NCBI RefSeq assembly: GCF_029203285.1
Contig: NZ_CP115669.1
Span: 3,658,001 to 3,722,000, forward strand
DNA: 64,000 bases
Origin: Pseudomonas sp. PSE14
GTDB taxonomy: Bacteria > Pseudomonadota > Gammaproteobacteria > Pseudomonadales > Pseudomonadaceae
Reading direction: 5' to 3'
The notes beneath the pieces are model-generated. The model had not been told where the DNA came from, did not search any database, and saw only the letters and a list, made by a program, of their open reading frames with translations. This document shows positions 55,347 to 58,837 of the stretch, in pieces. Both the position numbers and the translations under genes were made by a program. How positions within the stretch are numbered: the first letter of the stretch is position 1; each line of letters starts with the position of its first letter.

Positions 55347-55478
55347 AGGTTCGCTGGCTGCTCCCTGGGACGCGGGCCGCCAACGGCAGTGTAATAGCTA
55401 GCCATTTGCGTCAGCATGGACAGTAGCTTGTGAAAAGATAAAAATTAGCCCTGCGAAAAAGATTTCAGTGGAGTGAAA

Positions 55479-56243
55479 ATGGAATACGCAAAGGACTTTC
55501 TAGACATTCTCAGCGCGCTCAGGACATATATAGTCGACAGTATCGGAGTACTATTCACTCTATTTGGTGGCGCAATTGAATTTCTTAAGTCCCATGACGG
55601 CTTTGGAAATTTCCTGACAGGCTTGATAGGCGCCGCCATCGGTGGATTCTTTACGCTAAAGGGTGCTGAAAAGGCCCATATTCTTGAGCAAGAAAACGCT
55701 AGAGCGGATGAGGACAAGCTGCTCGACAACACATTGGCGATGCTCAAGGTCGAGATAAATAGTGCATGGGAAATTTACTGGATCGAGTACGGAAAAGATT
55801 TGGTAGAGCTTGATGATACAGAGCCACTTCTATCAACCTTCCCGATTGGCGAAGACCCATTTACAATATTCAACTCAGCGCCAGAAGCCCTCGCAATGGC
55901 ACCCCGCGAGATTGCAAAGGATATTGTTTATTTCTACATGCGGGCCAAGGGGCTGGTTGCCATGGTGAAGGAGAATAGCTCTGACACAGAAGAATGCCGG
56001 CGCTACGCATTCGATTCAATGATGCAAAAACGCCATGATCCAGCCTTCCTAGAACTTACTAATGATGCCTTTGCAAAAAAGCTTGAGGAACATTATGTAG
56101 CTTGCATAGACGAAATGTCCGCTCGCCTATTGATGGTATCAACAGCTACTGGAATGAAAATACTGACTCAGGAACTTAAAGAAGTTGTCGAGAGGCTGAA
56201 TAACTCCATCGACAAGTACCTGATTGATCGCGCTCGCGCCTGA
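55479..56243 (+). CDS. Membrane-anchored protein of unknown function (accessory)
   Basis: This 254-residue protein is AT-rich compared with the flanking phage genes. Two hydrophobic segments lie near residues 17-36 (IVDSIGVLFTLFGGAIEF) and 45-60 (FLTGLIGAAIGGFFTL). A largely helical soluble part of about 190 residues rich in Glu, Asp and Lys follows. GGAG lies five bases before the ATG at 55479. It has no overlap with D, so it is probably expressed on its own. I do not recognise the family. Single membrane-anchored cargo genes at this site often mediate exclusion or abortive infection, but nothing here proves it. Confidence 0.7.
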   Translation: MEYAKDFLDILSALRTYIVDSIGVLFTLFGGAIEFLKSHDGFGNFLTGLIGAAIGGFFTLKGAEKAHILEQENARADEDKLLDNTLAMLKVEINSAWEIYWIEYGKDLVELDDTEPLLSTFPIGEDPFTIFNSAPEALAMAPREIAKDIVYFYMRAKGLVAMVKENSSDTEECRRYAFDSMMQKRHDPAFLELTNDAFAKKLEEHYVACIDEMSARLLMVSTATGMKILTQELKEVVERLNNSIDKYLIDRARA

Positions 56244-56477
56244 GGTATAAAGCCCCCCGGCACAACACAGGGGCCCGCTCAGCTTTCCAGTTCCGTGAGT
56301 GCTGCCAGACACCTATCAACTTGAATATCATCGCCTGATCCTGGGGCCTCGAGGGCCGGAAGCGGCGCAGAGACGACCATGCTGCTGCCTAGCGACACCA
56401 GTGGAGCAAGAACGCCACCCACAGCGACTGCGTCACCTGTAGGTGAGCCAGAGGAACGCGAAATCGCAAATAACGAA
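56244..56477. pseudogene. Decayed partial copy of the 58.05-kb gene end
   Basis: On the minus strand, 56279-56372 closely resembles 58051-58144: shared blocks are TTCCAGTTCCGTGAG, ATCAACTTGAA and GATCCTGGGGCCTC. It is the 3' end of the small gene at 58051-58230, but substitutions and indels break the frame and the rest of the gene is missing. The two copies bracket the 56.4-58.0 kb cassette, suggesting that it was inserted by recombination. No other gene is visible in this gap. Confidence 0.6.
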
Positions 56478-57038
56478 TCATTTCATGCGTAGCAATGAAT
56501 GCAGGCGCTTAACTATCATCACGATAGTCAACAGCAAATTAACACAAACCACTACGGCAATCGGCGTAAAGAACAGTTTTGACAAAACAAGGGAAAAAGA
56601 CGTTTTGGTTTTATCGACTATAAAACTGTCTGCAACAGAGAACGCAAAGCAAATAGCAATAAGGACAAGAGAGGAAAGAATAGAAAAACTGATATTGTAA
56701 TAGAGCTCATCCAAAAGTTTTTTCTTTGCTGGATACAGACTATCCACAGGCCTTTTCAGATCTATATCTCTCTGGCGCCTTTCATCAAGCTTACTTTCTT
56801 GATCATAAACAAGTACCAAAACAGAAAGTAGCAAAGCTGTAAAAATTGCACCAAAGTTAACGAGCAGCGACGAAATATCCTTTGTCAGCAAAAAACCGGA
56901 AGCAATACTGAGAAAGCCAAAGAGCACGGGAACACAACAAAAAGTCACGAAGTCCAACCATGACCACCCGCCATCAACATCACCCAGCGTTCCGAAGTGC
57001 CCCAGCACGATTTCCTTTATGTTAATCTTGCTGCTCAT
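56478..57038 (-). CDS. Multi-pass membrane protein of a two-gene cassette
   Basis: This 186-residue protein has four likely membrane segments: near residues 30-50 (FVTFCCVPVLFGFLSIASGF), 58-80 (LVNFGAIFTALLLSVLVLVY), 115-138 (SFSILSSLVLIAICFAFS) and 150-176 (KLFFTPIAVVVCVNLLLTIV). A charged cytoplasmic loop (DQESKLDERRQRD) lies between the second and third. The ATG overlaps the stop of the upstream gene (ATGA), so it is translated with that partner. The sequence is AT-rich and foreign to the phage core. I do not recognise the family. By analogy with two-part phage defence systems it could be the membrane effector. Confidence 0.75.
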   Translation of the reverse strand: MSSKINIKEIVLGHFGTLGDVDGGWSWLDFVTFCCVPVLFGFLSIASGFLLTKDISSLLVNFGAIFTALLLSVLVLVYDQESKLDERRQRDIDLKRPVDSLYPAKKKLLDELYYNISFSILSSLVLIAICFAFSVADSFIVDKTKTSFSLVLSKLFFTPIAVVVCVNLLLTIVMIVKRLHSLLRMK

Positions 57039-58021
57039 ACCTTTATGCCCATCCCAGGATATATAGTTGAGAGAAACTCATTCAAAAGAACCTTACACCA
57101 ACTATCAAATTCCTTCATATTAGGATTTCCGGCAGTAATTGTAACCTTATCTTCATCAACATCAATCTCGCAAACTTGATTACTTGGATTTGCACCAAGC
57201 CTAAAAGTTCGCTTCCTGCCGTTCATTTCCACAACCGTCTTCACCTGAGTACACAATTGCGTGAGCATTTCGATAGTCGCGCTCTGCTCCGTGCCGGCTT
57301 TTAAATAGTCAGCAAATACACCAAGATTTTTACGACGCGGCGCTTTGATTATATAGGTGTGCTCCGCCTCATTATGACCAAGATTTTTTATTTGATCCTC
57401 AATAGCATTCATCCCGCTGAACCGAACCAACTTAATTTCTTTTGCAGTAGCCTTTTTCCATTCCTCGAAAGCCTTCTCATACGACAGAGGATTCATTTGC
57501 AGAACGCGACCACCAGTTACGCGTGACAACTCCGCACGCAACAACTCATGAAGCAATGTCTTAATACCGATATTTCGCTGATTATGCAGAAGAGCTACAC
57601 CTTCATCGAGCTTCTCGGGAATGTAGAAGCGCACATAGTGCTTAAGCACTTCCGCATTCTTTTCAAGACGCTGAAAATCCACATTCCCAGTTTCAATATT
57701 TACAATATCGGTTCTTGAACCATAGCTGCCTGCCTTCATGATCCCTCGAAACTCACGCTTGACATCATCAAACTTGAAAGAGGAAAAGGCATAAATCTGC
57801 TTACTATCTTCTACAATTTGATATTTATCACCCTTAGAGGCGATGAAATCTTTAAAAACCTTGTACATGTCAAACTGACCAATACCCCCAAGCGGGGAAT
57901 ACGAGTTCTTGACCTGTTTGCCTTTCATCACCGGATCAAAGCATCGAATTGTATATGGCGAGACGGTATTCAAATTTAAGCACCCTAAATTATATTGTTC
58001 TGCAAATCCTTGAAATTTCAA
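57035..58021 (-). CDS. Soluble protein of unknown function, first gene of a two-gene cassette
   Basis: This protein of up to 328 residues has no signal peptide or membrane segment. Distinct stretches are SSFKFDDVKREFRGIMKAGSYGSR, VLKHYVRFYIPEKLDEGVALL, RNIGIKTLLHELLRAEL and KAPRRKNLGVFADYLKAG. Mixed alpha/beta content and many Lys/Arg are consistent with nucleic-acid binding, but no catalytic motif is evident. No ATG lies near the N-terminus. The frame opens at a TTG at 58021. A TTG at 57973 behind AGGG, or an ATG at 57928, are alternatives. It is translationally coupled to the membrane protein that follows. Codon use and AT content mark it as transferred. The function is not known to me. Confidence 0.75.
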   Translation of the reverse strand: MKFQGFAEQYNLGCLNLNTVSPYTIRCFDPVMKGKQVKNSYSPLGGIGQFDMYKVFKDFIASKGDKYQIVEDSKQIYAFSSFKFDDVKREFRGIMKAGSYGSRTDIVNIETGNVDFQRLEKNAEVLKHYVRFYIPEKLDEGVALLHNQRNIGIKTLLHELLRAELSRVTGGRVLQMNPLSYEKAFEEWKKATAKEIKLVRFSGMNAIEDQIKNLGHNEAEHTYIIKAPRRKNLGVFADYLKAGTEQSATIEMLTQLCTQVKTVVEMNGRKRTFRLGANPSNQVCEIDVDEDKVTITAGNPNMKEFDSWCKVLLNEFLSTIYPGMGIKV

Positions 58022-58023
58022 AA

Positions 58024-58045
58024 CCCCCGACTAATAAGTCGGGGG
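58024..58045 (-). terminator. Intrinsic terminator of the small gene at 58.05 kb
   Basis: CCCCCGACT (58024-58032) pairs with AGTCGGGGG (58037-58045) around AATA, followed on the minus strand by TTTT. It isolates the two-gene cassette from transcription coming from the right, so that cassette must have its own promoter. Confidence 0.85.
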
Positions 58046-58050
58046 TCGGC

Positions 58051-58230
58051 TCAGTTTTCCAGTTCCGTGAGCGCTACCAGGCCCTCCATCAACTTGAACA
58101 CCGTCTCCCGATCCTGGGGCCTCAGGCATCGGAAGCGGCGTAGAAGCACGGATTCCAGTGCACTGAGTCGTTCAACAGGCTGCCACTTCTCGGCAATAAG
58201 AGTGGCTACCACCAGTTTGCATTGCTCCAT
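58051..58230 (-). CDS. Small conserved phage protein, unknown function
   Basis: This 59-residue protein (MEQCKLVVATLIAEKWQPVE to LMEGLVALTELEN) is supported by GAGGGAG eight bases before the ATG and by a terminator directly after the stop. It is predicted helical and has no membrane segment. A decayed copy of its 3' half lies at about 56.28 kb. The function is unknown. Confidence 0.65.
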   Translation of the reverse strand: MEQCKLVVATLIAEKWQPVERLSALESVLLRRFRCLRPQDRETVFKLMEGLVALTELEN

Positions 58231-58372
58231 GGGTCGTACTCCCTCACATCCTCGGGCGCCCGTCAGCACCTTGCCGACGTCCAACCGCCCGGGGGGAGTG
58301 GCCCATTCTCAGCACAAAGACGCGTGCCACTAGCCTGCCTTCGCTATAGCGACGGGTATGCCCCTTTTATGT

Positions 58373-58837
58373 TCAGCAAGGCACCTCGCCGGTTTTCAGC
58401 AAGTGCAAAAGCTGTTCTTCGGTAACGATGAAAGCGCCCGCCTCCCGTGCATCCTCCACCTTGGAGGGGCCAGCGTTGTAGCCGATGCACAGCACTGCAA
58501 GGGATCTGCCGGCAGTCTTCATCACGCGAAAACCACTTTCGGCTGAGAGTGTTTCAAGGCGTTGTCTATCAGCCGCCTTGAAACCCGTGAAAAGAACCTG
58601 GGGGCGAGTATCAGGCTGCACCTTGGGTGCAGGTTCTGGAGCCGGTGGAGCGTTATCGAAGAGGAGCTGATCCGCGCCCACCAGGTACTCGATTACCCGG
58701 TCTTTGCGGAAGGTCCTCGGAAGGCTATCGGCATCGCCGCGGCCCTGGATGTAGCGGGAGTTTTCTTTCCAGCGAGTCAACAGCCAAGTGGCGATATTGC
58801 CGCTGGCATCTCGGTATACGAATTGGATTGGATTCAT
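58373..58837 (-). CDS. BRCT-domain phage protein
   Basis: This 154-residue protein has a C-terminal BRCT domain (about 78-150): QVLFTGFKAADRQRLETLS, then LCIGYNAGPSKVEDAREAGAFIVTEEQ, which resembles the BRCT of NAD-dependent DNA ligase. The N-terminal 60 residues (IQFVYRDASGNIATWLLTRW, YIQGRG and a RTFRKDRV motif) resemble the WYL-type fold. A Pro-rich linker joins them. AAGGAG lies seven bases before the ATG. BRCT domains bind DNA ends or phosphopeptides, so a DNA-repair or nick-binding role is plausible but unproven. Confidence 0.8.
   Translation of the reverse strand: MNPIQFVYRDASGNIATWLLTRWKENSRYIQGRGDADSLPRTFRKDRVIEYLVGADQLLFDNAPPAPEPAPKVQPDTRPQVLFTGFKAADRQRLETLSAESGFRVMKTAGRSLAVLCIGYNAGPSKVEDAREAGAFIVTEEQLLHLLKTGEVPC

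Follow-up and report, generated by a model that had tools for sequence, protein, structure and literature searches.

We have analyzed a stretch of 64,000 nucleotides from Pseudomonas sp. PSE14 (contig NZ_CP115669.1, positions 3,658,001 to 3,722,000; from here on, the window) and in it two coupled minus-strand genes, A and B, that lie in a P2-like prophage. Gene A (open frame 57035-58021) codes for a soluble protein and gene B for a four-pass membrane protein of 186 residues, and the two overlap by an ATGA. Our analysis indicates that the pair is probably a prophage exclusion (abortive-infection) module of the RexAB type. The evidence is the RexA-like fold predicted for A, together with the tight pairing, the mobility and the purifying selection observed for both genes. 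A sequence-only reading of this DNA had described the same arrangement, which the sequence, the hydropathy and the helices bear out. It had also proposed a cytosolic sensor with a membrane effector acting in defence, and by analogy with Rex this is now the best reading. However, its statement that no named system matched did not hold: the fold predicted for A is suggestive of lambda RexA, and a RexAB-type pair of Pseudomonas, RexABpp (PP_5643-5644 of the Pseudomonas putida prophage P1), was published in 2026 (PMC12894663).

The predicted model of A (pLDDT 83.7, pTM 0.73) had 8TWQ as its best structural match, the same that is reported for RexApp (PMC12894663). As modelled, A would have the RexA fold, a split globular domain interrupted by a dimerisation domain of four strands and four helices. 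RdgC folds were also among its structural matches. In BFVD, five unnamed phage proteins (A0A6J5Q1Z2, A0A8S5S8L2, A0A8S5MSR5, A0A8S5QGP5 and A0A8S5PCY0) are predicted to fold like A, with 9-20% identity to it, and could be RexA-like as well. The hydropathy profile of B has four hydrophobic peaks, in windows of 19 residues that begin at positions 33, 59, 118 and 158, and its model (pLDDT 89.7) has five predicted helices, the last four of them membrane-spanning in length.

The two genes were found together in every locus tested. Searches with B retrieved 92 records (84 distinct protein pairs, the window included), and in all of them A was located directly upstream on the same strand, so that each pairs a RexA-like gene with a gene for a multi-pass inner-membrane protein, B having four hydrophobic helices. 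These records comprise 23 genome-contig loci, 64 distinct viral contigs and 5 from 298 Pseudomonadaceae genomes, that of the window included. The viral contigs came from two scans (48 in the first, 63 in the second, 16 of the latter new by name comparison), and 4 protein pairs were common to viral and genome records. Separate tallies of A before B gave 71/71 and 66/66, and a recount 138/138 loci, repeat contigs included. A matched its profile only partly in 7 records (L018, L057, L069, L073, L074, L147, L179) and B in 4 (L030, L080, L082, L160), some of these being cuts at contig ends. In the reverse direction, 348 genomes of a single genus gave seven clear matches to A, all with B adjoining and one of them also found via B; one fragment of 45 residues and two matches at E 0.2-1 were left out of this count. 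Protein distances of A and B were correlated over the 43 loci represented in both alignments (r = 0.905, reached in none of 5000 permutations, with shared ancestry uncorrected). Against five relatives, dN was 0.11-0.36 and dS larger than 2 or saturated, indicating purifying selection on both genes.

Neither A nor B of the window had a credible match in Pfam, NCBIfam or PADLOC 2.0.0. The comparison of 43 A members with Pfam and PADLOC, and of 47 B members with PADLOC, gave scattered weak matches only, the best being PDC-M18B (2 B members, E 1e-4). Both proteins matched PHROG families of unknown function, phrog_15676 for A (E 2.8e-13) and phrog_15250 for B (E 1.1e-15). The sequence-only reading had named two findings that would refute it, and neither was made: no structural or metabolic family is strongly homologous to A or B, and the pair was not split in any of the loci tested. 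Since these three collections of models did not pick up the pair of the window, a routine inventory that relies on them would overlook it. In open-licence PMC texts, supplements excluded, the family was named nowhere under six accessions of E. coli homologues, the two PHROG numbers, PP_5643 or RexABpp; the query with the PHROG numbers, PP_5643 and RexABpp returned only the RexABpp paper and two unrelated ones. The kind of system is already known. We call the sequence family a new and widespread member of the RexAB kind because it is unnamed in the libraries and literature searched, and because the authors of the filamentous phage PfAC16, which carries the pair, left both genes annotated as hypothetical. 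They name only a toxin-antitoxin (TA) system and PfsE as defences of that phage.

Distribution and mobility of the pair

The pair is present in P2-like prophages of Pseudomonas (the window and L001). Among phage records it was found in 2 of 50,697, the Pf phage PfAC16 and a related record, and among plasmid records in 6 of 72,556. Four Acinetobacter plasmids of 14-44 kb carry it, as do mobilizable plasmids of 5.4-5.7 kb from Serratia and Kluyvera. Of three Acinetobacter plasmids that were examined, two (L004 and L005) carry it alongside BrnTA and genes predicted to confer resistance to macrolides or tetracycline. A search with a single E. coli pair detected a chromosomal pair in 36 of 5426 E. 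coli genomes. In the three of these loci that were examined (L090-L092), all in Rac-like prophages, the pair adjoins hokD, always in the same position, and runs antisense to the lytic genes around it. This points to a standing cargo slot in prophages of this type. By their record titles, 21 of the 23 genome-contig loci belong to Gammaproteobacteria, the other two being metagenome bins named Alcaligenaceae and Phycisphaerae. The pair is rare: when 274 genomes were sampled from the class, A was matched in three, that of the window included.

On balance, we lean slightly towards placing the pair in a large unnamed branch of Rex, a stand-alone cassette that moves among phages (P2-like, lambdoid and filamentous) and plasmids down to 5 kb, mostly in Gammaproteobacteria. 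The history of Rex exclusion of T4 rII spans about 70 years, over which its trigger has not been found. If the branch is real, Rex exclusion would be a common mobile immunity module and not a peculiarity of lambda, and its diverse homologues could reveal what RexA senses. The family offers dozens of compact pairs whose membrane partner is well conserved in sequence, including those on three plasmids of 5.4-14 kb and on Pf phages, and this makes comparative tests of sensing and of RexA-RexB matching practical.

The genes and their cargo slot

The sequence-only reading had given A up to 328 residues from a TTG start. A TTG start was kept, but the length was not: most likely the gene begins at the TTG at 57973 (312 residues) rather than at 58021, on the basis of the matches and starts of its relatives and of a TATAAT beneath the 16 extra codons. 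With the 328-residue version as tblastn query, matches started at residue 10-17 in six of eight loci (L001, L003-L006 and L008), and in the distant loci L009 and L007 at residues 52 and 72, respectively. In L001 a TTG is aligned with that of the window and the sequence before it is unrelated, while the other loci have an ATG there or nearby. Again, in a profile-based survey, whose script picked the start codon closest to the first profile position, most relatives start at the equivalent of 57973. The TATAAT is a perfect one and has no -35 box at standard spacing. The promoter scan gave a weaker overlapping candidate (TTGAAA-16-AACAAT, 9/12), and 6 promoter-like sites vs 2.8 expected in shuffles.

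Table 1. Coordinates in the window of the pair, its candidate signals and its cargo slot.
Feature	Position	Strand	Description
Gene A	57035..57973	-	Predicted RexA-like soluble protein, 312 aa, TTG start; pI 9.0; PHROG 15676; start set from relatives
Gene B	56478..57038	-	Putative RexB-like four-pass membrane protein, 186 aa; own start codon overlaps the A stop (ATGA); PHROG 15250
TATAAT	57989..57994	-	Candidate -10 box of a promoter for the pair itself; 15 nt upstream of the start TTG; consensus match only
GC-rich hairpin	58024..58045	-	Possible terminator; 9-bp stem, 4-nt loop, TTTT; between ORF 58051-58284 and the pair
Cargo slot	55347..58050	.	From tail gene D to the repressor region; other genes there in phage Dobby

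The product of A has 35.6 kDa and a charge of +6.9. A net positive charge was found in 29 of 43 A members and not in the other 14; lambda RexA has a pI of 8.6 and a charge of +3.1. The sharp contrast in base composition described before was confirmed, with GC values of 0.42 in A and 0.41 in B (0.44 in both at third codon positions, GC3) vs 0.66 in the tape-measure gene (GC3 0.85); the backbone is near 0.66. The terminator that had been placed at the right of the pair was upheld in part. The hairpin is present, just past the end of the minus-strand open reading frame (ORF) 58051-58284, but its minus-strand tail has only four T, and it is absent from the output of the terminator scan, for which five T out of eight are needed.

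The pair had been located between D and the immunity region, as prophage cargo, and the flanks agree with this. Genes for the tape measure, a tail protein and D are found at the left; at the right there is a primase, besides genes of repressor-like, DNA-binding and CII-like type. Of a 9.3-kb query that covers the slot and its surroundings, 20% is matched by phage Dobby (Citexvirus, Peduoviridae), at 77% identity over the last part of the tape measure and over the tail protein and D. In Dobby four different genes, a LuxR-type regulator and three hypotheticals, separate D from the XRE repressor, and therefore the slot is variable. The phage contig L001 has a D-like gene that resembles the one in the window, and there too the pair is convergent with it.

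Two neighbours in the window deserve mention. A second AT-rich cargo gene (55473-56243, plus strand, 256 aa) is convergent with the pair; by eye its product has a hydrophobic stretch near the N-terminus, and it had no Pfam, PADLOC or NCBIfam match at E 1, while its PHROG matches were all weak (best E 0.005). At the other side, the 154-aa product of 58373-58837 (minus strand) matches phrog_2561, a family of short phage DNA ligases (E 1.7e-41), and also positions 574-654 of the NAD-dependent DNA ligase phrog_3869 (E 3.3e-5), being too short for a whole ligase.

Proposed mechanism and alternative readings

Exclusion of phages has been demonstrated for RexABpp (PMC12894663), and the pair of the window would by analogy have the same function. 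Taking dimerisation, DNA binding, activation of B and membrane damage from lambda RexAB and RexABpp, A would be a RexA/RdgC-fold protein, probably a dimer and a non-specific DNA binder. It would be inactive during lysogeny and would respond once an incoming phage forms DNA or DNA-protein structures that it recognises. Activated A would then switch on B, a four-helix inner-membrane protein that would oligomerise into a leak or channel, growth would stop and the infection would fail. The conserved residues of B are mostly in the helices and in the loop after helix 2. Conservation is high along the second helix and this loop (consensus SLLVNFGAIFTALLLSVLVLVYDQESK), which would be the obvious place for lining the pore or for contact with A.

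These same residues would fit an anchor as well as a channel. In a RexAB-like system with the roles reversed, A would be the toxic effector and B a membrane anchor that silences it until infection; the kinds of gene and the layout would be identical, and Butters gp30/gp31 are described in this way in PMC12894663. We consider this unlikely, since in the lambda, CarolAnn, Sbash and P. putida systems, according to the same source, the effector is the membrane protein. Still less probable is a TA or maintenance module of plasmids and prophages. The pair does have BrnTA or NadS/RelE nearby on plasmids and hokD as its neighbour in the E. coli prophages L090-L092, but these elements have TA genes of their own already, and A is a RexA-like protein of 300 residues and not a small antitoxin.

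The sequence-only reading had also suggested a comparison with KwaA/KwaB. A variant of Kiwa, in which a KwaA membrane sensor works with the DNA-binding KwaB, would agree with the presence of a membrane protein and a soluble DNA-binding partner and with their sizes (KwaA 172-207 aa and KwaB 288-324 aa in the loci fetched). However, domain content, profile comparison and gene order gave it no support, and we regard it as very improbable. At E 0.1, PF16162 (KwaB) matched none of 43 A members and the PADLOC Kiwa models none of 43 A and 47 B members. The hhalign probabilities were 0.1% for A vs 11 KwaB and 0.8% for B vs 10 KwaA. Besides, kwaA precedes kwaB (L093, L094), the reverse of the window, where the soluble gene comes first. 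Hardly any weight can be given to a role in phage physiology, with A tuning the lysis-lysogeny switch (a side role of RexA) or, like RdgC, recombination, and B unrelated to defence: the switch can reportedly be biased by lambda RexA in the absence of RexB, A has RdgC-fold matches and the cassette is near the repressor region, but the pair is also on plasmids and filamentous phages, A is always with B, and RexApp was without effect on its own repressor promoter (PMC12894663).

Comparison with known two-gene systems

There is another pair, without a name, with a similar build. In four of four loci (L095-L098) a DUF4747 gene (soluble protein of 280-300 aa) is followed on the same strand by a gene for a hydrophobic protein of 170-210 aa, possibly another sensor-membrane defence pair; seven of the eight proteins were scanned and had no PADLOC match. 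Its profiles showed no similarity to A or B, PF15931 (DUF4747) matched none of 43 A members at E 0.1, and hhalign gave 0.1% for A vs four DUF4747 proteins.

With lambda RexA and RexB no sequence similarity to A and B was detected (hhalign probability 0.1% in both cases, with thin lambda profiles of two sequences each). RexB is also shorter than B (144 vs 186 aa), and lambda rexAB lies directly behind cI whereas the pair of the window is a separate cassette. The actinobacteriophage pairs Sbash gp30/31, CarolAnn gp44/43 and Butters gp30/31 are, like A and B, prophage-borne and made of a cytosolic RexA-like protein and a membrane protein, a likeness taken from published descriptions.

The closest case to compare is RexABpp, one of only five RexAB-like systems counted in the 2026 paper. 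We looked for RexBpp among the B proteins by its residues W25, F35, L55, T103, S145, G153 and Y181, and it was not in the fetched loci: with fixed numbering the best of 47 aligned B proteins had 2/7, and with free offsets the best B of 95 frames had 3/7, unrelated frames reaching up to 4/7. For RexApp, HHpred gave a link to RexA, for RexBpp it gave nothing, and BLAST gave no function (PMC12894663). Both RexABpp proteins, one RexA-fold and DNA-binding and the other a four-pass membrane protein, are required against certain phages. When RexApp is overproduced, RexBpp stops growth and permeabilises a fraction of the cells, with no measurable depolarisation, and binding between the two was not seen in two-hybrid tests (PMC12894663). 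The RexABpp genes are part of the repressor operon; those of the window are not, and they may be transcribed from a promoter of their own. Otherwise the likeness is clear: both are pairs from a Pseudomonas prophage in which the first gene codes for a soluble protein of similar size, with the RexA fold predicted for A, and the second for a four-pass membrane protein (RexBpp has at least 181 residues).
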